A DNA stretch of 46,619 nt from a virus. Positions 2,757-46,130 of the stretch are shown piece by piece. The position numbers and the translations under genes were made by a program. The stretch spans positions 1-46,619 of the IMG/VR virus record IMGVR_UViG_3300035670_008640. One strand, 5' to 3'. The notes below the pieces were generated by a model that worked only from the letters and a program-made list of their open reading frames with translations, did no database searches and was not told the origin of the DNA. The first letter of the stretch is position 1. Every line of letters starts with the position of its first letter.

Positions 2757-4846
2757 TATTTAATAATTTCAAAATTAAAGTCACAGGTTATTTCACTTAT
2801 CACCGCGTCGAAAGAACAATCCACATCACAAAAACTGAAATCAAATTCACATAGGTCATTGGCCACCTCAAAATTAAAGTAACAACTTAATAGGCAGTTA
2901 TAACAGTTTGGACACCAGTAGTCGAATAAGTCAAATCTATTTTTTAACCTTCTAAAATTATGTTGAATTTGTGGAGAACTTAAAGGTTCGACATACATTC
3001 TAAATTGAGATATTCCACCCATAAATGTTCCCGCGAAGTTTGGTTCAAGTAAAATATTTGTTTTTAATTCAGATAAACTTGTTCCTGATAATGTTTCATT
3101 TGGCATCAATTCAGGGTCTTGCATATATGGACCGTCCAAATCGTCACAATTTTTAAATATCAAACTTTCCTTAAGTCCTTGTGTTCCACCACCAAAAGAG
3201 ATATTAAAAGGAACACCAATTTGTTTTTCTTTTTGTGTGTTTAATTCTCTTGGGATAATTTCTTCAAAATCTTCGATTATCATAAACAAATAACCATTGA
3301 CGTAGATTTTTAACTTCCCTAACCTTTTATTGTCATTACTCAACCATTTTTTATTGATGGTTGTGATATTTTGTTTTTCTTCTTTTTCTGAACCAATATG
3401 TGTGTGAGGTGGTTGTATTAAATTATATGATGAACCATTTATCGATGAAGGGTATAAAAATTGTCTAATATCCCCCAATCCACCCCAATTCAATAAGTCA
3501 CACTCTTCAAGAGTTTTGTATCTCTCAAAAACCGTGCTTATCATAACCCATCTCTCTTCTGTATTTGCAGTTTGACATAATATATTTTCATATCCACAAA
3601 CATCGTATATCCCCCTCGATGAACATATTTCATTTATTGTATAACCCGAACAATATTGTGTATCCGTTTTTTCACATGTTACCGTTGTTGTGCAGTCTCC
3701 TGTCATCTTTACATATTTAACACATATCTTTGGATTTTTCGGGTCACCCTCAAATCGTATGGACATTGCATTTGAAACCACGTCCATTGCCGGATCCACT
3801 GGTGGGTTTTCTATATCTTCTGTATATGACCCACAACGACTAATTTGATGTTCTTGAGTGGTTGCCGATGTTGGGTAAATGCTAAAACAATTCGATATGG
3901 TAATTCCTGTATCTGAACACGCACAAGTATTTAAACACTCAAGTTCTGAAGTGACTCGTTCATATGTAAACGTGGTTGCCGATGCTGCAGAAAATGAAAA
4001 ATCAAAAACACATAAATCACATCTGTTTACAGGTAAATTGGCAACATCATCTTGGTTACCTTTTGCGTGGTGATAAAATTTATTCTCAGACCTCGTTCCA
4101 AAATAAAAGAAGGTACCTGAATTATTTGGGTAGATATCATTTAAATAACTTTGACCTGGAGTACAAGTAAACTCATCTCTCTGTCTTGGTTTTAACATCA
4201 TCTCTGCTGTCCAACCCTTATTTACCCTTTCAGGAAACACCTCATAATCATATCCGTATAATTTATAAAATCCTTGGTAAAAACCACCATATAGTTCATG
4301 ATACCATCCGGCTTTGTTATCTTCTTTTGAAACCATATTATATGCTATAGGTGTATTTCCTGAAAACCTTTCGTTGGGGTTTTGTGCGAATGTACCAACC
4401 GAATGCATTTTGAATCTCCTATCGTAGTGATGGGGTTCGTACATATAATTGTCATTTAAACCCATTGTAAATGTCAGGGTTTGTCCCGACATTTTTTGAT
4501 ATAATCCAGTATCAATACCGGTTAAACCAACGTCACAAATCGTTTTTTCTTCCTCACAAGACAAATCTAAATTTTTTGGATTGTAGTAGTTTTTGGATAT
4601 AACATTATTTTTTGGATTTTTTAAACCAAAATATAATTTTCTTTTCTCATTACTTAATGCAGAGTTTAAATCAATATTTATTGGTAATCTATTACCATCA
4701 TTTTCTGCTATTAATTTTTTAGAGAAAACAACCTCTTCGTCGTAATCTTTTTCATCAGACACTAGCGTTAAATCAAAATAATCCTGATTACTTAAATTAA
4801 TTTTATACCTATTGAAAAAATAATTTTTTGTGTTCTGACCGAGCAT
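2756..4846 (-). CDS. Large virion surface protein with LamG-like C-terminal region
   Basis: The 696-residue protein has a central and C-terminal region (about 440-640) resembling a LamG/concanavalin-like sandwich. It shows the usual sequence of a strand with [11 protein letters not shown], a Gly-rich turn (SFGGGTQG), and a closing [20 protein letters not shown] segment. These domains usually bind glycans or form fibre modules. The protein is unusually Cys-rich, with clusters near residues 280-420. Its tail holds [11 protein letters not shown] and repeated C-x-F-x-F strings. It starts a minus-strand unit of at least three appendage genes and is divergent from the gene at 4904. Start at 4846 is the first ATG. 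Confidence 0.7.
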
Positions 4847-23823: not shown

Positions 23824-25560
23824 TTATCTTAATTCTCTTAAATCGAATGTTCTAACACCATCAACCAAGATTCTTCCGTAGAATCTGTTGTTAACCATCT
23901 TCTTAGCGTATCTAGTCATGATACCCTTGATTGGTGTGAAGTTGAATGGGTTATACATTGTTGGTGTCAACTGAAGAGGTACGTAAGGTGCGTATACATA
24001 ACCAGTGTCAAGTAATGATGAACCCTTGTGTCCTAACAAAATTGTGTTTGCTGGGAAGTAGGGGTCACGATAAACTTGATATCTTCCTGACAATGTACCA
24101 ACTCTTTCGATACCCATGTTGTACTGATCCTGTTCAGGCGCTGCGTTTGAAACGTGGAAGTATTCCAAGTCATCAAATATAGCTGAAACTTCAGATGAAA
24201 CAACGATCCAGTTAGCACCACCTCTCAATGTAGACTTGTGAATCTGAGCAGAAATTTGGTTAATTGCTGTGATTAATGTTTGATTCCAATCCTTTTGGTT
24301 ATAGTTAATTGGTCCGTTAGCAATTCTCTTCCATCCGTTGTAATCCCAACGTAATGTCCAAGCCGCACCTTTTCTTAAGTCTCTTAAGATTTCACGGTCA
24401 ATTTCAGCTGCAACTTGCTCTGACAACAACGCTGTCAATTCAGCTTCAGCATCGATATTATGGAATGCTGAAACGTCTTGTGCAAGTTCTGGTGACCACT
24501 GAGCTCTTAACTTTCTTTCAGTAACAGAAACTGTAACAGATTCTAAGTCAAAAGAAACTTCACCAATAGCATCTTCAAATTCTAAAGTCTTATAGATTCT
24601 ATATGTTGCTTGGAAAGCAGGTGTACTACCAAAAGTTGTTCCAGTGTAACCATCGATAGAACTACTACCTAAGTCAGCAACTGTAGAAACATCGATACCT
24701 AAGTAAATTTTACCTTCTTCATCACAAATATCATCATATTTTCCACCTGGGAAAGTTGTAGTAGAAGATTGTCCATATTGAACAATACCTTTACCATATT
24801 TTTGTGTCAACACTCTAAAATTATAGAAAACTGTTGGTGTTGCAGCACTAAGATTAACCTTCAACGATGATAAAAACTCTTCAGTGTCCATAGCGTTTCC
24901 GTCAGGACCAATTAATTTACCTTGTCCGTCTTTTGTAAATCCAGACAAAACCGCTAAAACTTCTCTGTGTTCTTCAGAATCATCATAATCATAAGCCACT
25001 AATTCACCATTATCCCAAGCAACGGTTTCTAATGTTTTAGTAACTGCAGAGTATTCACCTTTTGAATAATCAAACAATCCTGCTGGATCTTCATCTGGTA
25101 AAGCTCCTTCATAAAATCTATCATATAGATTTTTACCTGTATCATAACCATCATAAGGAGTTCCACTACCACCTATTTCGTTACCTGGTGCGCCATATGG
25201 TTTGTAATGAGATACTCCATCTCTTTCTTGAATTTTAGGTACAAAGAAGAATAACTTTCCGATAGGAAGGTTCATAGCTTGAACTGAAACGATGTCGTTA
25301 GCCAATAATTTAGAGAAAACTCTTCTAACAATTGGGAAAACTACAGTTTCAAATGAACCTGTGCTATCACTAGCAGATGCTTCGTTTATCAAAAATGACG
25401 CTTGGTTTTCGTACAACTGCGCCATATTTTCTTTTACATGTCCTCTAAGACCTTCTAGGAACCCTAATTTGTCCCACTTATTGATTGTATCTTCCTTGAT
25501 AACTTTAAGGTGCTTAAGACCGATGTTACCAACGAGACCTGATTCTAATAATGCTCCCAT
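23824..25560 (-). CDS. gp23: Major capsid protein gp23
   Basis: The 578-residue protein has the order of T4 gp23: a leader with a FLINEASAS site at residues 57-64, then VVFPIVRRVFSKLLANDIVSVQAMNLPIGKLFF, typical of the gp23 N-arm region. Later come the long insertions and LDTGYVYAPYVPLQLTPTMYNPFNFTPIKGIMTRYAKKM near the C-terminus. It forms the hexameric shell. The cut between E60 and A61 matches the gp21 rule (L/I-x-E then A/G/S), so the leader would be removed in the prohead. It lies just after scaffold gp22-like, as in T4, and is followed by a two-way terminator. Length is close to T4's 521. Confidence 0.92.
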   Translation of the reverse strand: MGALLESGLVGNIGLKHLKVIKEDTINKWDKLGFLEGLRGHVKENMAQLYENQASFLINEASASDSTGSFETVVFPIVRRVFSKLLANDIVSVQAMNLPIGKLFFFVPKIQERDGVSHYKPYGAPGNEIGGSGTPYDGYDTGKNLYDRFYEGALPDEDPAGLFDYSKGEYSAVTKTLETVAWDNGELVAYDYDDSEEHREVLAVLSGFTKDGQGKLIGPDGNAMDTEEFLSSLKVNLSAATPTVFYNFRVLTQKYGKGIVQYGQSSTTTFPGGKYDDICDEEGKIYLGIDVSTVADLGSSSIDGYTGTTFGSTPAFQATYRIYKTLEFEDAIGEVSFDLESVTVSVTERKLRAQWSPELAQDVSAFHNIDAEAELTALLSEQVAAEIDREILRDLRKGAAWTLRWDYNGWKRIANGPINYNQKDWNQTLITAINQISAQIHKSTLRGGANWIVVSSEVSAIFDDLEYFHVSNAAPEQDQYNMGIERVGTLSGRYQVYRDPYFPANTILLGHKGSSLLDTGYVYAPYVPLQLTPTMYNPFNFTPIKGIMTRYAKKMVNNRFYGRILVDGVRTFDLRELR

Positions 25561-26967: not shown

Positions 26968-27624
26968 TTAACCGAAATAAATTTTAGAAACTATTTCTCT
27001 TCTTGGAGTTTGAAATGATTTTTTTGATAGGGATTCGTTTCCTTCTATAAGGTCTTCGAATGACTCAGATAGAAAACTGGGTATTGTTTTATTTGTTAGA
27101 TGAGAACTAACAACTATATCATCACAAGTTAAATCAGGTTTATATGATTTATTTTTAAGAGATTCAGATTTTATAAACATAAATCTACCTTTAAGTATAT
27201 CTACAGGGATATTTTTATTTAAATCAGGAAAAATGTGGTAACTACCAACATACCCATTTTCTTTTTTGTAAATCACACCCTCCCTTCCAAGAGCATCTAT
27301 ATTTTTGTTCTGTTCAAGAAAGTTTACACACTTTTCATAAATCCGATCGTCAATTGGTTTAAGATCATCGTCAAGAATTGTAACATAATCGTAATTATAC
27401 AAATTATTCAAAATAACATTCCACCTTTCCCAACATTTATTTTCATTTTGTTTATTTAAAATGGAAATATTGGTTTGAAAATCAAACTTATGGTTTATAT
27501 CGTTGGATGCATTATCCACCAATATTATATCTGATTTTATGGTTTGATTTTGGATTTGAACTAATATGTCTTTAAGATATCCTTTTCTTCTCCAATTTGT
27601 TAGAACTGTGAGTATCGTATTCAT
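26968..27624 (-). CDS. GT2 glycosyltransferase
   Basis: I start at 27624 (MNTILTVLTNWRRKG) because it forms an ATGA overlap with the methyltransferase stop; a longer frame adds nine residues. The 218-residue protein shows GT2 features: DIILVDNASND, the DxD site VTILDDDLKPID, and KGRFMFIKSES then DLTCDDIVVSSHL in the acceptor side. It has no membrane segment. It is the last of four genes in a sugar/methyl cassette upstream of gp22. Donor and acceptor unknown. Confidence 0.82.
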   Translation of the reverse strand: MNTILTVLTNWRRKGYLKDILVQIQNQTIKSDIILVDNASNDINHKFDFQTNISILNKQNENKCWERWNVILNNLYNYDYVTILDDDLKPIDDRIYEKCVNFLEQNKNIDALGREGVIYKKENGYVGSYHIFPDLNKNIPVDILKGRFMFIKSESLKNKSYKPDLTCDDIVVSSHLTNKTIPSFLSESFEDLIEGNESLSKKSFQTPRREIVSKIYFG

Positions 27625-28157
27625 TTTTTTATAATACCGTATGTTGGACATAGATCTTTTGTTAAATAATCAACCTTCAGATTATTTTCCAAACAGAATT
27701 CATTTACCGCTCTATAAACACCTGAGAAGTTTTCTTTTATATAATCATGTCCTGCTATAATACCTCCCGACTTTACTTTTTTGAGTGAAAGGTCAAGATC
27801 TAACCTGACAGACTCATATGAATGATCTGCGTCAATATAAATTAAATCGAAATAATTGGGTGGTAATCTTTTCAAGATATGATGAGAATTTCCTTTATAT
27901 ATGAAAACATTTTTGTCCATATATTTTGTTTTTAATTCTTCATAAACTTCGTTTAAATTACGATGTTTTATATTTTTTCCGTCCTTATCACCTGAATGAG
28001 ATAATCCATCGAAAATATCAATGAGATGCAATTCAGATGGATTAATCTCGTTTAAAATAAATTCAGAAAATTCTCCTTCAAAAACTCCAACCTCACAAAT
28101 TTTTAAATCTTTATCCAAAGATTTAATGAAGTCATTCCTCGTTTGAAAATAAATCAT
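27621..28157 (-). CDS. SAM-dependent methyltransferase (Methyltransf_24-like)
   Basis: The 178-residue protein has the class I motif CEVGVFEGEFS (21-31) for S-adenosylmethionine, an acidic end of strand 2 LHLIDIFDG (43-51), and DLIYIDADHSYESVRLDL (motif with D-A-D-H) followed by GGIIAGHDYI. The Methyltransf_24 group often methylates sugars or other small hydroxyl groups in glycan biosynthesis gene clusters. It overlaps both neighbours, so one transcript is likely. The acceptor may be a glycan made by the linked transferases. Confidence 0.8.
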   Translation of the reverse strand: MIYFQTRNDFIKSLDKDLKICEVGVFEGEFSEFILNEINPSELHLIDIFDGLSHSGDKDGKNIKHRNLNEVYEELKTKYMDKNVFIYKGNSHHILKRLPPNYFDLIYIDADHSYESVRLDLDLSLKKVKSGGIIAGHDYIKENFSGVYRAVNEFCLENNLKVDYLTKDLCPTYGIIKK

Positions 28158-28707
28158 TTTCTTTTCTTTTCAAGGCAATAATTCCTCTTCCACTCTTTTC
28201 ATATTCAACAACATCATAGATACTCAAGATATCCTCAAAATAGGCTTTGTCTTCATATCCTTCTACATCATTGTGGTTAAAATCGTGAACAAAAACTATT
28301 GTGTCAGGTTTAATATAATTATGGATTACCCTTGCACAATCTTTTCTTGCTCTTCCATCAATTAGACAAATATCAAAATCCAAGTTATTGACAACAGGAT
28401 AATCTACATAATCCTTGAATTGTTCATATCTTGGTTTTGTTCTGTCACCTGAATTTGGTTTTACATAAATCAAATCTATGTTATCCGCTTTGAACAAATC
28501 AATCGTGATTTTGATTTGATTGTAATAATCAATGTCGTGTTCTAACGATATTAATTTATCAACCAAACCTGAAAAATACAACGTTCCGTTGCCAGCACCC
28601 CACTCAAAAAAAGTATAATGTGGTTTCAAAAATTTTTCAATGAATTTGTATTCATTGAAGTGCATCAAAGGTGTAAAAGACTCAAACCTGTTCTTCATAG
28701 ATTTCAA
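28132..28707 (-). CDS. Class I methyltransferase-like protein
   Basis: The 191-residue product has a SAM-binding-like strand and Gly loop (FFEWGAGNGTLYFS, 33-46), an acidic strand 2 end (LISLEHDIDYYNQI), and FDICLIDGRARKDCARVIHNYI, which resembles the metal/substrate site of the family that transfers to sugars. The end is DVVEYEKSGRGIIALKR. It overlaps both flanking genes by about 26 bases, a hallmark of tight co-translation. A distinct acceptor from the adjacent methyltransferase is likely but cannot be read from sequence. Confidence 0.7.
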   Translation of the reverse strand: MKSMKNRFESFTPLMHFNEYKFIEKFLKPHYTFFEWGAGNGTLYFSGLVDKLISLEHDIDYYNQIKITIDLFKADNIDLIYVKPNSGDRTKPRYEQFKDYVDYPVVNNLDFDICLIDGRARKDCARVIHNYIKPDTIVFVHDFNHNDVEGYEDKAYFEDILSIYDVVEYEKSGRGIIALKRKENDLFSNEE

Positions 28708-30277
28708 ATACTTCGTTTACAAGTTCATCAACTTCAGGAATATAATCCCACAATGTCTTACCTTCGGGAATTAAATCTATAGTATCTGTAGTAAATTCTG
28801 TGTGTCTAATTTCCAAATCATCTAACAACAAACTCTTATATAATGCTTTTGTTTTATAATTTTGTGTTCCATTTCTAAAAGGTAAGATATGGTCTGGGTG
28901 TTTACAAGTTGGTACAGTTACAATCCAATTATCAAAAGCACCAGCAATATGTAAAGGTGATGAATCGTTTGTCACCAAACATTTACTTAAAGAAATAAGA
29001 GCAAATAACTCACCAAGAGTTGTTAAATCTCTTAAATCATATCCATTACTTGGACAATTAATGGGTAAATAACCTTGTTTTTCATCGATAGTTTTACCAA
29101 TTAATATTACAGTTAATTTTTCAGATAATTTATCAACTATTTCTTGCCACCATTCGATTGGTAATGTTTTTGATGGCCACCATTTACCGGCATGAATTAA
29201 AACTATTGGTTTTGATGGGTCTTTTTCTTTTAATAGATTAAAAACATATGACACATCCTCAACATCAAGTCTTAATTTTATTTGTTTATCAATATTTGGT
29301 ATTGTTCTTTTTATCATAGACATAGATGAAAAATCTGTTGGGTGAAAAAGAACGTGAGACATCTTATGTTGTGATTGTTCTTCTTCAGGACAGGTATACA
29401 TTGTAAGAATTGCATCATCGATACCCTTCCATTCATTATAATCATAAACAGGTAAATCTAAGTGGTCAAATAACCTTTTAAAGTGGGTTACAACAAAAAT
29501 ATTGGCTTCAGGATAAAGTTTTTCTGTATATCTAATTACTGGTTCAGAACAAAGTTGGTCTCCCATTCCTGCGGTAACTGAAATCAAAATATTTTGTTTA
29601 TATTCATATTCAGGCCCATCTATACTCCATTGATTAATATCCTTTAACAAAACATCAAATATCATTTCTTGTGGCGCACCTGCATAATGAACGATATAAG
29701 AATCTAATCTTGATATTCCACAATGTTTATCAAGAATATCCATTCTGTTGAATTTATAATGTAAATCAAACATATCTACATTATCATTCAATATACGTAA
29801 GTTGAGGTATGGTTGATCGGTTTCCACAAAATCAATCCCTTTTGGAAATTTAAAAATATTTTTGTGTACTCTGGATATAACCATAACTCCACTATTATAA
29901 AATTTCCCATTCCAAGTTTTTAGTGGTTCATTGTAGTATTCGGATGCTTGTTCTAAAAACTCAAATCGAGGAACGTACCTACCTTCATTAAACATTCCTA
30001 ATTTGTTTTGAGGTACCACATCAAAAAGGTTTGGACAATCTTCTCTTATGATGATATCAATATCGAAATAAATAATTCTTTTATATTCATTTAATAATTC
30101 ATGAATATAAAACTTATTCCATTTTTGTGTGATAAAATTACCGTTATGTTCAGTAATATTTAAAAAATCAGCACCAATTTTATCCGCATAATTTTGTAAA
30201 AACGGTAACGTAAAATTTGAAATAGTATTGTAATAATCTCCAATAGATATTGTTAAAACCAAGTTATCTTTTTTCAT
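28682..30277 (-). CDS. Two-domain GT8-like / GT9-like glycosyltransferase fusion
   Basis: Residues 1-220 form a GT-A domain with the DxD site IIYFDIDIIIRED (D72, D74), a GKFYNSGVMVISR loop and HYAGAPQE end, like GT8 relatives. Residues 228-531 form a GT-B domain like GT9 heptosyltransferases: NILISVTAGMGDQLCSEPVIRY, KPIVLIHAGKWWPSKTLP, and TNDSSPLHIAGA (436-447), close to the family's TNDTGPMHLAAA. Both are cytoplasmic. A fusion could add two sugars in sequence to one acceptor. It is the first gene of the sugar/methyl cassette; variant TATATTTCAA lies nine bases upstream. Confidence 0.82.
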   Translation of the reverse strand: MKKDNLVLTISIGDYYNTISNFTLPFLQNYADKIGADFLNITEHNGNFITQKWNKFYIHELLNEYKRIIYFDIDIIIREDCPNLFDVVPQNKLGMFNEGRYVPRFEFLEQASEYYNEPLKTWNGKFYNSGVMVISRVHKNIFKFPKGIDFVETDQPYLNLRILNDNVDMFDLHYKFNRMDILDKHCGISRLDSYIVHYAGAPQEMIFDVLLKDINQWSIDGPEYEYKQNILISVTAGMGDQLCSEPVIRYTEKLYPEANIFVVTHFKRLFDHLDLPVYDYNEWKGIDDAILTMYTCPEEEQSQHKMSHVLFHPTDFSSMSMIKRTIPNIDKQIKLRLDVEDVSYVFNLLKEKDPSKPIVLIHAGKWWPSKTLPIEWWQEIVDKLSEKLTVILIGKTIDEKQGYLPINCPSNGYDLRDLTTLGELFALISLSKCLVTNDSSPLHIAGAFDNWIVTVPTCKHPDHILPFRNGTQNYKTKALYKSLLLDDLEIRHTEFTTDTIDLIPEGKTLWDYIPEVDELVNEVFEIYEEQV

Positions 30278-30326: not shown

Positions 30327-32513
30327 TTATAAATAAGATATTGATGTTGGTGTCATTACTATATTTCTATTTATACCCAAAACGAAATTATTAACATAAC
30401 CCCAACCCCAAGATTTACCTCTATTATCTATAGCTAATACATGATTGGTTCCTGCAAATATTTTACAAAATGTTTTTAATGTTCCAGATACGGCCACCGG
30501 TGTTGATTTATTAGTAAATGAATCATCACCAAGTACACCATAACTATTTGATCCCCAAGACCAAATTTTACCGTATTTATCAATTGCAGTTGAAAATCCA
30601 CTACCCCCCCCAATATGACAAAATGTTTTGGTTGCCCCTAATACTGAAACTGGTGTTCTTTTAGCAGATATAGAATTATCACCAAGTTGACCACTTGAAT
30701 TTTCTCCCCATCCCCAAACTATCCCATTTTTATCTATTGCCATTGAATGGTCAAGACCTGCACTTATTTTACAAAAAGTTTTAACAGCACCTAATACAGA
30801 TATTGGTGTTCGTCTTGATACTGTTGAATTATCCCCAAGTCGACCATTTCCGTTACTTCCCCATCCCCAAACTATCCCATTTTTATCTATTGCCATTGAA
30901 TGGGCAAAACCTGCACTTATTTGACAAAAAGTTTTAACAGCACCTAATACTGAAACTGGTGTTCGTCTGGATGTTAATGAATTATCACCAAGTCGACCAT
31001 TTGTGTTTATTCCCCACGCCCACGCTCTTCCATTTTTATCTATTGCTAAACTATGTGTATACGCGTTTATTTGACAAAAAGTTTTTACAGCACCAAGAAT
31101 AGAAACAGGAGTACGTGTTAAGGTAGTTGAGTTATTACCAAGCCCACCATTAGTATTAACTCCCCATGCCCATACTCTTCCATTTTTATCGATAGCCAAT
31201 GTATAACCTTGACCCGTAGATATTTGACAAAAGGTTTTAACTGCTCCGAGTACCGAAATGGGTGTTCCTCTATCTGTCGATGTGTTATCTCCCAACTGTC
31301 CTGATATATTAATCCCCCAGTTCCATATTCTTCCATTTTTATCTATAACCGTACTATGGTCTCTTCCTGTTGAAATATCGCAAAAAGTTTTGTTTAATCC
31401 AAGTACGGATAAAGGTGTGTTAGTAAGTGGTAAACCAAAAAAATTACCTCCAGCATGACTACCCCAACCCCAAACTCCCCCATTATTTGTGATACCTATT
31501 GCATATCTAAAACTAAAAAAATTATTAGCAGATATATCACAAAATGTTTTAGTGGCACCTAAAACAGAAACAGGAGTATTTGCTTGAAGAGTATTGTTTC
31601 TACCAAGTTCGCCATGTGAATTACTTCCCCAAGCCCATAATCTTCCATTCTTATCTATCCCATATGAGTTACTACTACCGGCAGATATTTTACAAAAAGT
31701 TTTAACAGCACCTAATACTGAAACTGGTGTTCTCTTACTAACAATGGTATTATCACCAAGTTGACCTGTATTATTAAACCCCCATGACCATAATCTTCCG
31801 TTCTTATCTATGGATAAAGAATGATTATTACCTGCTGATATTTGACAAAAAGTTTTAACGGTACCTAATACAGATACAGGTGTTTGTCTATTGGATATAG
31901 AATTATCACCAAGTTGACCGTAAAAATTATATCCCCAACCCCATGCTCTTCCATTTTTATCTATAGCTAAACTATGTAAATACGCACTTATTTTACAAAA
32001 AGTTTTAACAGCCCCTAATACTGAAACTGGTGTTAGTCTGGATGTTGTTGAATTATCACCAAGTTGACCGTAAATATTATATCCCCAACCCCATAATCTT
32101 CCGTTTTTGTCTATACCTAAAGAATGATTAGAACCTGTTGTTACTTTACAAAAAGTTTTTACATCACCAAGAATAGAAACAGGAGTACGTCTTATCGTGG
32201 TTGAGTTATCACCAAGCTGTCCATATGTATTTACCCCCCAACCCCATAATCTTCCGTTTTTGTCTATGGAAATATTAAAATCAAATGATGATGATACACT
32301 ACAAAAAGTTTTTTTAGAACCACCTAACGATACTGGTGAATTATAAAATGCAATGGTGGTAATACCTAATTGACCGTTAGTATTGTCACCAATAGATTCT
32401 ACACCACCTTTATTTGTTAAAGAAGATAAAAACTGACCTCCACTACTTAAACTTGATACTATTTCAGGTACAATAGTCGGTCTATTTTTTAAAGCTAAAG
32501 TGATTTTTGGCAT
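30327..32513 (-). CDS. RCC1-repeat double beta-propeller virion protein
   Basis: The 728-residue protein consists of 13 full RCC1 repeats and one partial, each about 51 residues: DKNGRxWxWGxNxxGQLGDNS, a variable strand, TPVSVLGAVKTFCxISAG and xxHSLAI. Fourteen units would form two seven-bladed propellers. RCC1 folds usually bind protein or DNA surfaces in eukaryotes; in phages they are known only in some tail or fibre proteins. Here the neighbours are a fibre-associated protein and a collagen-like fibre, so a surface role is inferred. Every repeat keeps one Cys, giving 13-14 Cys. The N-terminal 45 residues may be a linker. Confidence 0.85.
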   Translation of the reverse strand: MPKITLALKNRPTIVPEIVSSLSSGGQFLSSLTNKGGVESIGDNTNGQLGITTIAFYNSPVSLGGSKKTFCSVSSSFDFNISIDKNGRLWGWGVNTYGQLGDNSTTIRRTPVSILGDVKTFCKVTTGSNHSLGIDKNGRLWGWGYNIYGQLGDNSTTSRLTPVSVLGAVKTFCKISAYLHSLAIDKNGRAWGWGYNFYGQLGDNSISNRQTPVSVLGTVKTFCQISAGNNHSLSIDKNGRLWSWGFNNTGQLGDNTIVSKRTPVSVLGAVKTFCKISAGSSNSYGIDKNGRLWAWGSNSHGELGRNNTLQANTPVSVLGATKTFCDISANNFFSFRYAIGITNNGGVWGWGSHAGGNFFGLPLTNTPLSVLGLNKTFCDISTGRDHSTVIDKNGRIWNWGINISGQLGDNTSTDRGTPISVLGAVKTFCQISTGQGYTLAIDKNGRVWAWGVNTNGGLGNNSTTLTRTPVSILGAVKTFCQINAYTHSLAIDKNGRAWAWGINTNGRLGDNSLTSRRTPVSVLGAVKTFCQISAGFAHSMAIDKNGIVWGWGSNGNGRLGDNSTVSRRTPISVLGAVKTFCKISAGLDHSMAIDKNGIVWGWGENSSGQLGDNSISAKRTPVSVLGATKTFCHIGGGSGFSTAIDKYGKIWSWGSNSYGVLGDDSFTNKSTPVAVSGTLKTFCKIFAGTNHVLAIDNRGKSWGWGYVNNFVLGINRNIVMTPTSISYL

Positions 32514-34515: not shown

Positions 34516-35229
34516 TTATTTATCTAAAAAATGAGTTAATTTTTTCATTAAGTCAAGTGTTTTGTTTATTGACCCATTATTTTCTTCTTTTGATTTAATC
34601 TCTTCTTCTAAATTCTCTTCATATCTATTTTTATCATCTTTATTTAAGAAGAGATATGCTCCAGGTGTTGATGGAGAACTAACCAAGTCAAAACAGATTA
34701 ATTCAAAATCTTCTTGAACCTCATTTCTTTCTCCCTTTTTAACCAATGACCCAACACCTCTTGATGATATTCCCATTGTTACTCCCTGTCTCATTAAATT
34801 AGCGGCTCTATCTCCTGGACAAGATACTATTCCTCTTTCATGGAAACCTGGAGATGTCAATAGTTTTATTTTACCCATCAATACGTTTGATTCCCACCAC
34901 ATATCTGTAATAAGATGAGAAACTCTATCTAAATCAATTAGAGAAGATTCTGGGTGATTTAATTCAGAAATAGACTGACCCTTTTCGATAATTTTTTTAT
35001 ACTTTTCAGCCTCTCTTTTGAGTATTTTTTCAGGGTATACTCTACCGTTTCTATTTGGAATGTCATGTTTTTGTAATACCGCATAAAAAACAAATGGTTT
35101 AGAATGTTCTAAATTTCCATATGATTCTTGTATTACCCTATCATTTCTAACATCGTTAGGGTTAATATACCCCGCATCCCACTCAATTAATATACCTTTA
35201 CCTAAATCGTTAGGACCTAAAACTTTCAT
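34516..35229 (-). CDS. gp21: Prohead protease gp21
   Basis: The 237-residue protein has the serine protease triad layout of this family: NHP (H92), GISSRGVG (S155/S156 region) and FDLVSSPSTPG (D181). The PGFHERGIVSCPGDRAANLMRQG segment precedes the Ser. It matures the prohead, cutting scaffold and capsid at L/I-x-E then A/G/S. A matching site exists in gp23. It is a serine protease of the same fold as herpesvirus assemblin. T4 gp21 is 212 residues. It is the first gene of a transcript with a TATATTTATA element 11 bases upstream. Confidence 0.88.
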   Translation of the reverse strand: MKVLGPNDLGKGILIEWDAGYINPNDVRNDRVIQESYGNLEHSKPFVFYAVLQKHDIPNRNGRVYPEKILKREAEKYKKIIEKGQSISELNHPESSLIDLDRVSHLITDMWWESNVLMGKIKLLTSPGFHERGIVSCPGDRAANLMRQGVTMGISSRGVGSLVKKGERNEVQEDFELICFDLVSSPSTPGAYLFLNKDDKNRYEENLEEEIKSKEENNGSINKTLDLMKKLTHFLDK

Positions 35230-35266: not shown

Positions 35267-35722
35267 TTAAACTTCTATTAAATTTTTTTCTTTTACACTC
35301 TTATTTAAGTGTATTTGAAAAAATCCTGAACCCTTTATATTGTCTTGATAAACAGATGAAATAATATTTTTTACACTATTTCTTATTATTGTGGATTTAA
35401 AATCCATTTGATTCTTTAAATATAAAGTTATCTCTAAATTCATAAAACTTCTCTTCCCTTTTTTAATTCCACTACTTCGTAAGTCTAAATCGACTATATT
35501 ATGTTTTTCGAAATAGTCGTTATCCACAACTTCAAGAAGACTATGTTTTATGTATCTTTCTAATAAACCTGTAGACCTATCCCAATTATCAAATTCTTTT
35601 ATTGGTTCTACCCAAGTTTGTAATACTATATATATTGTTTTTAAATTTACTGAATCGACAGTACCATAATAACATTTCGCGTCTTTAAATAGATTTAACT
35701 GCGATGTTTTTCCCTTTTTCAT
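35267..35722 (-). CDS. Hypothetical phage protein
   Basis: A 151-residue protein. The start MKKGKTSQLNLFKDAKCYYGTVDSVNLKTIYIVLQTWVEPI is followed by a helix-rich part and a C-terminal beta segment (GSGFFQIHLNKSVKEK). No known motif, no membrane segment. It is divergent from bS21 across a 105-base gap, and no element copy is close to its start. It may be virion-associated, judging from neighbours only. Confidence 0.65.
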   Translation of the reverse strand: MKKGKTSQLNLFKDAKCYYGTVDSVNLKTIYIVLQTWVEPIKEFDNWDRSTGLLERYIKHSLLEVVDNDYFEKHNIVDLDLRSSGIKKGKRSFMNLEITLYLKNQMDFKSTIIRNSVKNIISSVYQDNIKGSGFFQIHLNKSVKEKNLIEV

Positions 35723-35798
35723 ATATCCCTCATTGTAAAAAAATTTATTGTTAACACATCAATTATATGTATAAAACTTTAATTTGTCAAAAAATGCG

Positions 35799-35808
35799 TA
35801 TATTTATA
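35799..35808 (+). promoter_or_regulatory. TATATTTATA element (exact) before bS21
   Basis: Exact copy 19 bases before the bS21 ATG and on the same strand as it. This links bS21 to the same promoter class as the head and fibre genes. Confidence 0.5.
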
Positions 35809-35827
35809 ACTAAACTAAAAAATCAAT

Positions 35828-36016
35828 ATGCTAAAAATTAAGGTGCATAATAAAAATATAGATCAAGCGTTGAAGATTTATAAGAATAAAGTTTATAAAA
35901 CTAAACTTTTACTTAATTTATCTCAAAACAAAACCTATAAAAAACCTTCTGAAATAGGTAGAGAAGATAGGAAAAAAGCCGTCTATAAAAACAACAAAAA
36001 TTTAGATAAGGATTAA
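35828..36016 (+). CDS. rpsU: Ribosomal protein bS21
   Basis: The 62-residue protein aligns along its length with bacterial bS21, most like Bacteroidetes: MLKIKVHNKNIDQALKIYKNK, then KTKLLLNLSQNKTYKKPSE, then REDRKKAVYKNNKN. Y53 lies where the Flavobacterium protein has a Tyr reported to contact the 16S tail. bS21 sits on the small subunit near the mRNA exit and anti-SD; in Flavobacteria it helps hide the anti-SD. A phage copy could replace the host's. It is the only plus-strand gene in a 22-kb minus block and has no SD sequence. Confidence 0.85.
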   Translation: MLKIKVHNKNIDQALKIYKNKVYKTKLLLNLSQNKTYKKPSEIGREDRKKAVYKNNKNLDKD

Positions 36017-36237
36017 TCCGCGGATTTCCTTGAAAACTTTTCAACAGCAGTAAATCCTAATCCTGTTGCAACTATATACATCATTCCGTCCCATATAAAT
36101 TGCTCTATTTGGGTACCACAAAATGTATTGGAAAGAAATCCAACACACATAAGAATGAATGCAAAAATAGTAATTACTCTTTTGGATGATGTCTGACCAT
36201 CGACATCGCTTAAAATTGACTTTAAAATTTGTTTCAT
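36013..36237 (-). CDS. Small two-TM membrane protein, holin-like
   Basis: The 74-residue protein has two hydrophobic segments, about residues 20-41 (RVITIFAFILMCVGFLSNTFC) and 47-68 (FIWDGMMYIVATGLGFTAVEK), with a soluble N-terminus carrying DGQTSSKR and a basic C-terminus. Similar short proteins in phages are annotated as holin or membrane proteins. A hole-forming role in lysis is possible but no endolysin is next to it. It overlaps the end of the bS21 gene by four bases on the opposite strand and overlaps 36234 by four. Confidence 0.6.
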   Translation of the reverse strand: MKQILKSILSDVDGQTSSKRVITIFAFILMCVGFLSNTFCGTQIEQFIWDGMMYIVATGLGFTAVEKFSRKSAD

Positions 36238-36968
36238 AATTCTTTTTCTAACTCTTTAATTCTGTAAAGGGTTAGAAAAGAAATATCACTATCAATAATT
36301 TTATTAATAGTTTCTTGAATTTTATCGTTTAATTCTTTGTCCTGAGATTCAGTCAAAGAATTTTTAAGTTTGTTAATAACTGTTTCTTTTGACTCATTAA
36401 TTTGAGTCTTCAAAGACTTTTTATCCAAAGATAATAAGCTATTAAGTTCATTTTTTTCTGATTCTGTTATATTAGAATACTTGTTGTTAAAAATATTGGT
36501 AGCGACTTTAATCATACTTGATAAAGGTAAATTCACTGTTTTTGTTTCCTTTACATCTGATTTATTAGAAACTAGTTTTTTAATATTTAAACTAGATTCT
36601 GCTAATTTTTCCAAATTTTTAACACTACTATTTGTGTAAACAAGAACATCAATATCTTTGTAGTTATTTACCACATCTCTTTTTGATTTCTTATTTACCC
36701 ATTCGTTTAACTCAGATATTTTTTTATATTCTTCGTTAACAATTTTTTTTAATCTATCTACAGATAATTCTATATAGACATCCGCCACCTCATTTGATAA
36801 ACCATTTTTTGATGAAAGATTGTCGTATAAATAATATGCTTCTAATAATCCTTTGTTTGATAAAACGTGTTTCTTAAAACCTTTTAAAAATGATTTGAAA
36901 TCATCTTTTTTATAGTTTTCTATAAGTACGTCTTCTATTTTTGATTTTATTTCACCAAATTTAGTCAT
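36234..36968 (-). CDS. Helical head-region protein (possible prohead core component)
   Basis: The 244-residue, mostly helical protein lies between portal and gp21, where T4 has small core proteins (gp67, gp68). It is charged, with helices such as FGEIKSKIEDVLIENYKKDDF and LKTQINESKETVINKLKNS. Several candidate gp21 sites are seen: ITES, INES and LTES. No catalytic motif. I infer a prohead-core or internal protein. It starts a transcript with a TAATATTTATA element 11 bases upstream. Confidence 0.6.
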   Translation of the reverse strand: MTKFGEIKSKIEDVLIENYKKDDFKSFLKGFKKHVLSNKGLLEAYYLYDNLSSKNGLSNEVADVYIELSVDRLKKIVNEEYKKISELNEWVNKKSKRDVVNNYKDIDVLVYTNSSVKNLEKLAESSLNIKKLVSNKSDVKETKTVNLPLSSMIKVATNIFNNKYSNITESEKNELNSLLSLDKKSLKTQINESKETVINKLKNSLTESQDKELNDKIQETINKIIDSDISFLTLYRIKELEKEL

Positions 36969-36979
36969 AACCTTTTTTA

Positions 36980-36989
36980 TATAAATATT
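36980..36989 (-). promoter_or_regulatory. TATATTTATA-family element (AATATTTATA)
   Basis: Sense-strand AATATTTATA 11 bases before the 36968 start. It overlaps the last codon of the portal gene. Confidence 0.4.
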
Positions 36990-38844
36990 ATGAGTTTAAT
37001 AAATCATTTAATTTTGAATCCATTTCTTGTAAAGATTGTCTAGCTTTTGATAGATCGATATATTTTTCTCCTGTTAATAAACTATCTTCTAAAATTAAAT
37101 TTAAATCTTTATCAAAAATAAATCTCTCAGGTGTTACCTCACCACCACCCTCAGCCGGTGGTGGAGTTTCTCCACCTGCTTCACCTGTTGGAGGTGGAGG
37201 AGGAGGTGGTGGTGAACCGCCACCCAAATCTAACGGAGGAGATCCTCCACCTGATTCTCCACCCGCTTCACCACCCTCTGATGGAGGTCCAGGTGTTTTA
37301 CTACCATATAACTTATCGATATTAGCAAATATTCCTGTATTTTGAATAATTTCAGGTGTCTTTGACAGTTCATTTGCGACAGCCTTTTCAATTCTCTGTT
37401 GTTGTATATCAAGTTTAACTTCTTCATCACTAAATCCAAGAATATGTTTTTTAGCCCAAGAAGAAGATACCGCCTGTATACCATTACCCGGATCGGTAAC
37501 CGCATCTCTATACAACTGCATTTTAGCTTGCCAAGTTTCAACCTTAAGAAGGTCTGCTTGTGTTGATGGATTTGTTAAACCAAGAGTAAAATTAGATAAC
37601 TCATCTTCAAATCCTAAAAGATAAAGATGAATAATTGCAATTTTATTCAACTCTTGTATCATTGATTTTTGTATTCTATTTATTGTTCTCGCAAATCGAA
37701 TATCTTGTAGTGCTAGATTTTTACCGTCACCAACAACCTCTTCAAACCCTAAAAACGCTTTAGGAACTCGTAAAGATGTTAAAAGTTTTTTTTGTATATA
37801 TTCAATATCCGCGATTTCAGATAAATTTTGAGCTCCGGGTAAAGTTTCAATTGGATTTGGTGAGGCCGGGTCTCTAACCGGAATAAAAAAGTCTTGGTCA
37901 ACCGCCATTTGATTATATCTTAAATCAACATTTCCGTTGGTTGGGTCAACAACTTGGTCTCTTTTAAACTTATTTGCAACTTGTTGTACATATGCATCAA
38001 CATCTTTATCATCCATGTTACCAACAAAAACTTTAAATACTCTCCTTTCAGGTGCTCTTGAAGTTCTGTAAATTAACATAGCGTCCTCGGACAATATTAA
38101 CTGCTTCCATATTCTTCTACCTTTTTCTAACATAGAAGTTCCGTAGGGTAATTTTCTATCATCACCGAGTAATCTAAAATGTGCAATTTCCCATGTGTTA
38201 AAAACCAAATCTTTATTTTGCCACAAAAACTTTAAAGAATCATTTTCGGTTTCTACGGTATTCCTATCCGGTTTAATACGCATACCTCTTTCTTGTCTAG
38301 TGATTTCAATATTAGGTAATTGTTGTGTACCCATAACACCCTTATCAGGGTCTAATTTTAGATAAACAAAATTATCACCATACTTACAAGTATTTCTAAT
38401 CCACATCGGTAGATTAGTATTTATATCTAACTTATTATTAAATAAATCCGCAAGTATAGACTTTATTCTTTTACTTTCTGAATATATCTGTAAGATGAAC
38501 CCATCTTCATCTGGTGTTGTCGATTCTTCTGCATATATATCTAATGCTGCTGCGATTTCAGGAGTATACTCCATACTTTCATAATCATAAAATGAGGCTA
38601 ATCTCGTTGGTTCATAGTATACAGCTTGACTATAAAGATTACTCTCAATTTTTTTCCATTGTTGTCCTAAATATAAAGTTTGTTGTCTCTGTAGTTTTTC
38701 TCTCTCAAATTCTGTCCTATCTTGAGTTTTAAGAATTTCTCTTTTATCAAAGGTATATGTAGGTGCTTGTTGATCTAATGTAGAATCAGGACCAAAAACA
38801 TTTGATAATCTTTGCCATATAGTATAATTTCTTTTATCCGCCAT
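36988..38844 (-). CDS. gp20: Portal protein gp20
   Basis: The 618-residue protein has gp20 landmarks: YEPTRLASFYDYESMEYTPEIAAALDIYAEEST, IWKQLILSEDAMLIYRTSRAPERRVFKV and PGAQNLSEIADIEYIQKKLLTSLRVPKAFLGFEE, all typical of the T4-like portal core. It forms the 12-subunit ring through which DNA enters and leaves, and anchors the terminase. The C-terminus is extended by a Gly/Pro/Glu-rich tail (about 535-580) not present in T4. Length of T4 gp20 is 524. It lies after gp17, in the T4 order. Its own TATATTTATA element lies 13 bases upstream. Confidence 0.93.
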   Translation of the reverse strand: MADKRNYTIWQRLSNVFGPDSTLDQQAPTYTFDKREILKTQDRTEFEREKLQRQQTLYLGQQWKKIESNLYSQAVYYEPTRLASFYDYESMEYTPEIAAALDIYAEESTTPDEDGFILQIYSESKRIKSILADLFNNKLDINTNLPMWIRNTCKYGDNFVYLKLDPDKGVMGTQQLPNIEITRQERGMRIKPDRNTVETENDSLKFLWQNKDLVFNTWEIAHFRLLGDDRKLPYGTSMLEKGRRIWKQLILSEDAMLIYRTSRAPERRVFKVFVGNMDDKDVDAYVQQVANKFKRDQVVDPTNGNVDLRYNQMAVDQDFFIPVRDPASPNPIETLPGAQNLSEIADIEYIQKKLLTSLRVPKAFLGFEEVVGDGKNLALQDIRFARTINRIQKSMIQELNKIAIIHLYLLGFEDELSNFTLGLTNPSTQADLLKVETWQAKMQLYRDAVTDPGNGIQAVSSSWAKKHILGFSDEEVKLDIQQQRIEKAVANELSKTPEIIQNTGIFANIDKLYGSKTPGPPSEGGEAGGESGGGSPPLDLGGGSPPPPPPPPTGEAGGETPPPAEGGGEVTPERFIFDKDLNLILEDSLLTGEKYIDLSKARQSLQEMDSKLNDLLNS

Positions 38845-38891: not shown

Positions 38892-40661
38892 TTACTTTCT
38901 CATTCCAAATAACCAAGAATAATTATCGTAATCTTTTTTTGTAAACCCATCTATTCTTCTATAATTTGAATTTGATGTGACAGGTATACCGGGATTAAAG
39001 TCTTTTGACAAGTTTTTTTGATTGGATTCATTAACTGTCCAACTTTTTAACATGGCTTTAGTTTGTTCAGTTACCTTTTCTAATTGAGTAAATGAATTTT
39101 CACCAACATATATCGCCATGGCCATCGCCATTATTAAGTCATCGTGTTGACCTTTTATGTGATCTGGTCGACCGTTTATATAAACAAAAGTATTAAGTTC
39201 GTTAATTAATCTCATCGACCTAACTTTAAATTTATGTCTTAATGATTCTTCAAAGGATGAAATAATCTGTACCCTTTTTGAGTTAAAATTTATTCCAGGT
39301 ATTTTTTCGGTCATTTTTGGGTCATATTTCCATTTATCTGCAACATTAATCCCATCAACATATAAATTTTTGTAATTCATTTCTTGTAATTTTCTAGCGG
39401 TAGATACACCCATACCACCAGTGATATCGATTACAATAAATGCCGAATACATTGTTGCCCATTTAAATGCAACTTCAGCCGCTACATCTGGTGGTATTTT
39501 ACCCAAATATTCTAATACTTGTTCTCGTTCATCAAAATCTATAATACAGAACGTGGTAAAGTCTTCACTATCACCTCTAGAAACATCAATACCCATAATG
39601 TATTTATGTCCTTGAACAGGTTCTTTCCATTGCCATAATGAACCACCCATAAATTTATTTTCAGGTTCACAAATAAAATTGTCTTTTATATATTCTACAG
39701 TCTCAGAAGGTATTACATTATCACCAGATCCTAAAAAATTACACTCCAATTCCTGTGCAATCTTTCGTCTATCAAACTTTAGTTTTTTGGCCATTTTTTC
39801 AAACCATGTAGAATATGGTTTGTATCCGTCATTAAATCTTTCTTTTATTTCTTGAAAGTCTCTTTCTGACGGGTTTATATGTGAATAATCAAGAATAATA
39901 CTACTATCATCATAATCTTCCCTATTTAACATATAATGAACAATATCACTACATTTAATTAGTTTTAAATCCTTAGCATATCTTGGGTCACGATACCAAA
40001 ACATTTCGGTAACTTTAAAGTCATTCATACCTCTTAATGATTGATCATATATAGAGTAATAAATTTGGTCAAAACCATTTGGTGTTGATATTACAATTAC
40101 TTTACCTCCTGTAGAAAGTGAAGCCATACATGCAGACCAAAAATCATTGTCCGCTTCAATAAACGCTGCCTCGTCAAAAACAAGTATTGTTGGGGTATAA
40201 CCTCTTAACGCGTCTTTAGATGTTGCTACCGCCTTAACCTCACATCCATTACTTAATTTATAATGTTTTTGTGAGTTTTTTTCATTCGAGAAACTAACAC
40301 CAAACCATGATGGCCATTGTTCTAAAAATGACCTAATTTTATTGGCCATTTCTAAAGAAGTATCAAGTTTGTTAGCTATTATAAGAATTTTTTCAGGTTT
40401 GGATTTTGGTGAGGTTATAAGTCTTTTTGATACCCAAGCAGATGTAACAGTAGATACACCAGCTTGTCTATACTTTAAAGCAATATTTTCTTCAAAATTA
40501 TCATAATCATTAATCAATGATTCTTGGTCAGGAAAAAGTTCTAAAGGAACGTACTTTGATTGGGTATTATCGTATGTTTGTAAATATGTTCTTAATGCAT
40601 ACGTAGTATCTTTTACGCATTTAGCATATTCTAAAAGTACTTTTTCTTTTGTAATAGACAT
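38892..40661 (-). CDS. gp17: Terminase large subunit gp17
   Basis: The 589-residue protein has an N-terminal ATPase: Walker A-like KYRQAGVST (63-71), Walker B VFDEAAF (161-167), then VISTPNG as the coupling motif. The C-terminal RNase H-like nuclease has GIDVSRGD (D359, D364), IDITGG (D412) and GQHDDLIMAMAMA (D507, D508). It pumps and cuts genome concatemers. Its neighbours are portal downstream and a 424-residue virion protein upstream. Length is close to T4 gp17 (610). No small terminase gene is recognised close by. Confidence 0.94.
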   Translation of the reverse strand: MSITKEKVLLEYAKCVKDTTYALRTYLQTYDNTQSKYVPLELFPDQESLINDYDNFEENIALKYRQAGVSTVTSAWVSKRLITSPKSKPEKILIIANKLDTSLEMANKIRSFLEQWPSWFGVSFSNEKNSQKHYKLSNGCEVKAVATSKDALRGYTPTILVFDEAAFIEADNDFWSACMASLSTGGKVIVISTPNGFDQIYYSIYDQSLRGMNDFKVTEMFWYRDPRYAKDLKLIKCSDIVHYMLNREDYDDSSIILDYSHINPSERDFQEIKERFNDGYKPYSTWFEKMAKKLKFDRRKIAQELECNFLGSGDNVIPSETVEYIKDNFICEPENKFMGGSLWQWKEPVQGHKYIMGIDVSRGDSEDFTTFCIIDFDEREQVLEYLGKIPPDVAAEVAFKWATMYSAFIVIDITGGMGVSTARKLQEMNYKNLYVDGINVADKWKYDPKMTEKIPGINFNSKRVQIISSFEESLRHKFKVRSMRLINELNTFVYINGRPDHIKGQHDDLIMAMAMAIYVGENSFTQLEKVTEQTKAMLKSWTVNESNQKNLSKDFNPGIPVTSNSNYRRIDGFTKKDYDNYSWLFGMRK

Positions 40662-45746: not shown

Positions 45747-46130
45747 TCATACTAATTCTATAACCTTCCTTTTTTCTTTTTTTGTTTTTCTCTTTTGCAA
45801 TTCAACTCTTAATATACCGTCAATAATTTCAGCCTCAATATTGTCTTGATCCACGTTTTCAGGGATATTAAAAATTTTATTAATTGAATAATATCCATTT
45901 TTTAATGAATCAGACCCCTTAGTTCTTTCTCCCTTGATGAATAGTTGATTGTTTTCAACCTCAACCGATAAGTTTTGTTTATTAAAACCAGGGACCATCA
46001 TTTCCATATAATATCCATTTTCATCTTCATGTATATTATAAGATGAATGTGACTTTAATGATGGAGTATCAAAAAGATAATCATTAAAAAAGTTATCTAA
46101 CAACGAATGATTTTTTAAAACTGTTAACAT
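45747..46130 (-). CDS. Small heat shock protein Hsp20
   Basis: The 127-residue protein has the alpha-crystallin domain order: SYNIHEDENGYYMEMMVPGFNKQNLSVEVENNQLFIKGER, and NIEAEIIDGILRVELQKRK, where GILRV is the usual GVL signature region. The C-terminal IELV matches the I-x-V-like tail used for oligomer assembly. These proteins hold unfolded proteins for later refolding; phages carry them, and a role in virion assembly or host stress is suspected. It is divergent from a Clp-type ATPase, forming a chaperone pair. Confidence 0.9.
   Translation of the reverse strand: MLTVLKNHSLLDNFFNDYLFDTPSLKSHSSYNIHEDENGYYMEMMVPGFNKQNLSVEVENNQLFIKGERTKGSDSLKNGYYSINKIFNIPENVDQDNIEAEIIDGILRVELQKRKTKKEKRKVIELV

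Follow-up and report, generated by a model that had tools for sequence, protein, structure and literature searches.

Among ribosomal proteins, bS21 is the one that phages carry most often, and Flavobacterium is one of the few clear examples of ribosome specialisation. The nearest counterparts are the Bacteroidetes myophages with a bS21 gene (clades a-e) described by Chen et al. (2022; PMC9723584), who proposed that the phage protein is expressed late, is substituted into Bacteroidetes ribosomes and selects phage mRNA. In their study, bS21 transcripts accompany those of the late structural genes, most phage bS21 are nearest to those of Flavobacteriia, divergence of the N-terminal part is reported, packaging of bS21 is raised as a possibility, and it is stated that bS21 and an opposite-strand neighbour may be co-transcribed. 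On the host side, Flavobacterium rpsU is autoregulated via ribosomes that lack bS21, and the presence of a Shine-Dalgarno sequence (SD) at rpsU depends on the bacterial order (McNutt et al., 2023; PMC9976891). The bS21 of Pelagibacter phage HTVC008M enters E. coli ribosomes (Mizuno et al., 2019, as cited in PMC9723584). That phage resembles ours in encoding bS21, but its host belongs to a different phylum. To our knowledge, hiding of the anti-SD by bS21 is not expected in that phylum. Phage bS21 itself, its position, the conservation of Tyr54 and the idea of a phage ribosome for late mRNA are thus already published (PMC9723584), and what we add is a comparison of leader SDs, a late motif and a divergent promoter pair. 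A search of the text of PMC9723584 for SD and promoter terms turned up nothing on the leaders or promoters of bS21, and none of the three additions appeared in that paper, in PMC9976891 or in our literature searches, a scope outside which subscription papers, preprints and supplements lie.

In this study, we analysed a viral record of 46.6 kb that is probably a fragment; we call it the window (Table 1). Its host is probably a member of the Bacteroidota; no tRNA genes were found in the window. The bS21 gene lies antisense within a TerL-portal-protease-capsid block and is the sole plus-strand gene there, every other gene predicted between 23824 and 46130 being on the minus strand. The phages of PMC9723584 share this arrangement, in which bS21 is antisense between TerL/portal and prohead protease/MCP with two conserved hypothetical genes flanking it, as well as low GC, an aromatic side chain at residue 54 and a late role proposed for bS21. 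Their genomes span 293-331 kb, and the window is a 46.6-kb fragment. One difference is that three relatives in our set have the flanking genes without bS21. We put at about one half the probability that the window bS21 is of this published "bS21 phage" type, is expressed late and acts through the feedback capture proposed below.

Table 1. Features of the bS21 region, in window coordinates.
Feature	Position	Strand	Basis
Major capsid protein	23824..25560	-	PHROG 138, E=2e-66
Prohead (head maturation) protease	34516..35229	-	PHROG 207, E=8e-44
CN151, 151-aa conserved neighbour, divergent to bS21	35267..35722	-	adjoins bS21 in 97/98 distinct loci
Host-type promoter of CN151, TTGACA (35790-35785)-17 nt-TATAAT (35767-35762)	35762..35790	-	12/12 consensus match
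Late-type element TATATTTATA, TATTTAT core 27 nt upstream of bS21 ATG (putative)	35799..35808	+	position and conservation
Phage bS21 (rpsU-like), 62 aa	35828..36016	+	Pfam PF01165, PHROG 21469, purifying selection in relatives
Codon of Tyr53, equivalent to F. johnsoniae bS21 Tyr54	35984..35986	+	aligned proteins (90 phage, 48 host)
Small protein of 74 aa, its gene overlapping bS21 tail to tail by 4 nt	36013..36237	-	ORF
h244, 244-aa conserved protein, late-type element upstream	36234..36968	-	conservation in related loci
Portal protein	36988..38844	-	PHROG 213, E=9e-66
Terminase large subunit (TerL), T4-type	38892..40661	-	PHROG 2, E=8e-40

The product (MLKIKVHNKNIDQALKIYKNKVYKTKLLLNLSQNKTYKKPSEIGREDRKKAVYKNNKNLDKD) had been described from the DNA alone as a full-length bS21, and our searches bear this out. 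In a Pfam profile search, residues 4-55 match positions 2-54 of the 55 in PF01165 (Ribosomal_S21; E=1.1e-8) with 35.1 bits, above the curated gathering cut-off of 27. PHROG 21469 (ribosomal protein S21) also matches (E=2e-4), and among solved structures the window protein is by sequence nearest to two chains of bS21, 9i5v_9 and, from the F. johnsoniae ribosome, 7jil_z. A tyrosine at residue 53 was to be checked against host bS21, and in the alignment Tyr53 indeed falls on host Tyr54, the aromatic residue typical of anti-SD-hiding bS21 of Bacteroidia; all 90 distinct phage proteins carry Y (83), H (5) or F (2) at this position. The phage bS21 is under strong purifying selection, with a median dN/dS of 0.105 over 353 close pairs and no pair above 0.5. 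Because of the Pfam match, the conserved tyrosine and the low dN/dS, we consider the gene real and maintained; together with synteny, the match and dN/dS also rule out a chance open reading frame. Compared with Flavobacterium rpsU, the phage gene belongs to the same family (about 40% identity), with the same tyrosine and the same predicted action on the anti-SD. The phage/host alignment also shows the divergence of the N-terminal part, including positions that are invariant in Flavobacterium (e.g., R21, F23, D24 and G27), and several basic residues of Flavobacterium bS21 (e.g., R30, R33 and R35) are gone from the window protein. A tblastn search of annotated phage records gave relatives of this bS21 in just two entries, both metagenomic, each 735,411 bases long and with the same match statistics.

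The control of the two genes differs: Flavobacterium rpsU has an extended SD and is autoregulated, whereas the phage gene has no SD and a late-type element. Taking as SD strength the energy with which the 16S tail GAUCACCUCCUUUCU pairs with a 22-nt leader, the window bS21 leader reaches -1.3 kcal/mol, against a mean of -1.6 kcal/mol for the 52 window genes and far from the -13 kcal/mol beyond which we class an SD as extended, as in the SD-autoregulated rpsU of Flavobacteriales. The 97 phage bS21 leaders have a median of -1.5 kcal/mol and none is below -13, whereas all 67 Flavobacterium rpsU leaders are stronger than -13 (median about -21 kcal/mol). In a class-wide draw of Bacteroidia, which kept the loci scoring best against Pfam and may therefore be a biased sample, only 8 of 31 rpsU leaders passed -13; this agrees with the published order-dependence and rules out a universal rpsU SD in the possible hosts. 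The absence of an SD at bS21, as proposed in the preliminary description, therefore stands, and holds for most of the 98 related loci. Its further suggestion that the phage gene escapes SD control survives in part: it fits the contrast with Flavobacterium, but since only 8 of 31 Bacteroidia rpsU had an extended SD, it needs a host that has one.

The search for SDs at the other bS21 genes of the clade, also suggested there, gave a divided answer as well: beside the median and the lack of extended SDs given above, about 19% of phage bS21 leaders (the window not among them) have a partial SD. Such partial SDs occur in only 3 of 253 leaders of protease, h244, scaffold, MCP and portal genes (Fisher p=2e-8, uncorrected for relatedness). 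Four of the 97 bS21 leaders (L135, L138, L258 and L271) contain AAAGGAGG, an 8-nt SD of -12.2 kcal/mol, which together with the partial SDs rules out universal SD absence in the phage clade. In those four phages, the remaining late genes that we examined have no SD, and on the CN151 tree the SD trait of bS21 leaders has changed at least 8 times. SD-anti-SD pairing may thus be used specifically for bS21 in some phage lineages. As a separate observation, the restriction of AAAGGAGG to bS21 in these four phages recalls the single SD of the host at rpsU.

Upstream of bS21, ATATTTATA is found at 35800-35808. Eleven of its 12 copies in the window point in the sense direction and precede a gene start by 18-39 nt (binomial p about 2e-14), the distance being 18-30 nt for most starts. 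A wider form of the motif precedes bS21 in 92% of the related loci (4% in shuffled sequences), and protease, h244 and scaffold in 96%, 96% and 97% (1-5% in shuffles), while its rate of 5% at CN151 equals background. From its position and conservation, we consider ATATTTATA a putative late promoter. Two claims made from the window alone, that bS21 carries an element shared with late genes and that it stands isolated on the plus strand, are thus found again in most of the 98 relatives. A literature search for a TATTTAT late motif returned nothing relevant. The element is also present upstream of the late genes of Flavobacterium phage immuto (MW353177), the best annotated relative of the window TerL, which has the same order TerL-portal-small genes-protease-scaffold-MCP; unlike the window, immuto lacks a match to bS21 and a recognisable CN151, and its TerL is only 27% identical. 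In this cultured, distant T4-type phage, the late-type element occurs in one orientation only (6 copies, against 0 for ATATTTAT).

The divergent neighbour CN151 has a promoter of another kind. The compact intergenic region (35723-35827) holds the late-type element of bS21 together with a consensus host-type promoter for CN151. The latter scores at least 10/12 in 93 of 93 related intergenic regions (14% of shuffles), with a spacer of exactly 17 in 87. With about 10 bp separating the CN151 -35 box from the element of bS21, the polymerase sites of the two genes are likely to overlap, and an exchange from early to late transcription could take place here. In relatives this gap is 6-10 or 18-23 bp, with none between; we do not claim helical phasing, since the pattern involves only two changes on the tree. 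If CN151 is the neighbour bS21_CN of PMC9723584, a single transcript cannot hold both genes in sense, and the co-transcription statement would need strand information; a text search of that paper found no mention of strand-specific libraries.

The related loci are the best matches of each search (98 distinct phage loci), so the percentages describe near relatives rather than all phage bS21 genes. CN151 is divergent and directly before bS21 in 97 of the 98, and in loci extending that far, the 74-aa or the 244-aa gene comes after bS21 on the opposite strand. The 74-aa protein has no Pfam match. When 80 loci were fetched by protease alone, bS21 was present in 73, four ended before the slot and three spanned it without bS21. 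Because these three keep the neighbours, bS21 is not indispensable, and strict dependence of CN151 on bS21 is ruled out (L155/L205, L128 and L165 have CN151 without bS21). The slot is only about 80-90 bp in L155 and L128; in L165 it holds an unrelated small lipoprotein-like ORF (4450-4722, minus strand) on the strand that bS21 would use. The AlphaFold model of CN151 has a pLDDT of 88; fold searches gave only one match, an uncharacterised myovirus protein (TM 0.84), and the search against PDB gave no significant match.

Based on these comparisons, we propose that a full-length bS21, retaining the aromatic residue that hides the anti-SD in F. johnsoniae, would be transcribed from the late-type element, against the direction of the structural operon, with the host-type promoter of CN151 standing back to back with that element. 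Its leader is without the extended SD that turns Flavobacterium rpsU off once ribosomes are bS21-full. Phage bS21 would then occupy 30S subunits, an incorporation that we predict for this clade, and the anti-SD would stay hidden. If the host is Flavobacterium-like, host rpsU would be off while the phage gene is on, because phage bS21 fills the subunits: the host feedback loop would shut rpsU, phage bS21 synthesis would go on, and the subunit pool would shift towards the phage version while virions are being made. With no host mRNA signal limiting its synthesis, phage bS21 could replace the host protein unrestrained. The last and least supported step is that the diverged N-terminal half might favour phage late mRNA. 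The best-supported part, judged from sequence, would be a late-made bS21 still able to hide the anti-SD, with an mRNA free of the host SD switch. We hold more tentatively, and think rather doubtful, a strictly one-way version in which the SD-less late phage bS21 fills ribosomes, host autoregulation silences host rpsU and the phage copy is immune, the partial-SD lineages being a variable, tuned version of the circuit. If phage copies without the host SD switch do retain the anti-SD-hiding residue, phages might take over the feedback control of a ribosomal protein in order to replace it. The timing, too, gets a testable account from the conserved divergent promoter pair, late-type at bS21 and host-type at CN151.

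For feedback capture we counted the family, tyrosine and selection, the SD medians (-1.5 vs -21) along with the autoregulation described in PMC9976891, the late-motif rates, and the order in 97 of 98 loci, which agrees with PMC9723584; against it, the many Bacteroidia rpsU without a strong SD, the partial or 8-nt SDs at bS21 of some relatives, the three relatives without bS21 in the slot and the loss of R30, R33 and R35 in the window. The main rival is plain dosage. The phage copy would then be extra bS21, a late-joining subunit protein, letting 30S assembly and repair keep pace in the late burst, and the missing SD would follow from the generally SD-less, short late leaders of the phage. This is possible, although we would not bet on it. 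It makes altered mRNA choice unnecessary, and it agrees both with the SD-less window genes (mean -1.6 kcal/mol) and with a late element 18-30 nt from most starts, which leaves a leader too short for the extended SD of the host. However, bS21 is strongly constrained, and divergence at the Flavobacterium-invariant R21, F23, D24 and G27 goes beyond the needs of simple supply.

Divergence of the N-terminal half, reported in PMC9723584 and seen in our alignment, would be accommodated if that half changed initiation on phage mRNA while rpsU control was irrelevant, in a host order without an rpsU SD. The scarcity of rpsU leaders stronger than -13 kcal/mol across the class (8/31) leaves room for such a host, but the nearest annotated TerL relative infects Flavobacterium and most phage bS21 are nearest to Flavobacteriia (PMC9723584), and we find this unlikely. 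An extra-ribosomal role, for example as an RNA-binding protein or a virion protein packaged with the head, seems very improbable given the conserved Tyr54 equivalent and the full bS21 domain, even though 97 of 98 loci have bS21 within the head operon and its packaging was raised in PMC9723584.

Other genes of the window were noted in passing. An Hsp20 small heat-shock protein gene (45747-46130, minus strand; Pfam E=1e-19) is present, and this family has been reported near phage bS21 too (PMC9723584). Between the capsid and protease genes are glycosyltransferase-like and methyltransferase genes (26968-30277, minus strand). A further gene (30327-32513, minus strand; PHROG 4219, E=6e-89) encodes 728 aa with repeats resembling those of RCC1 (regulator of chromosome condensation).
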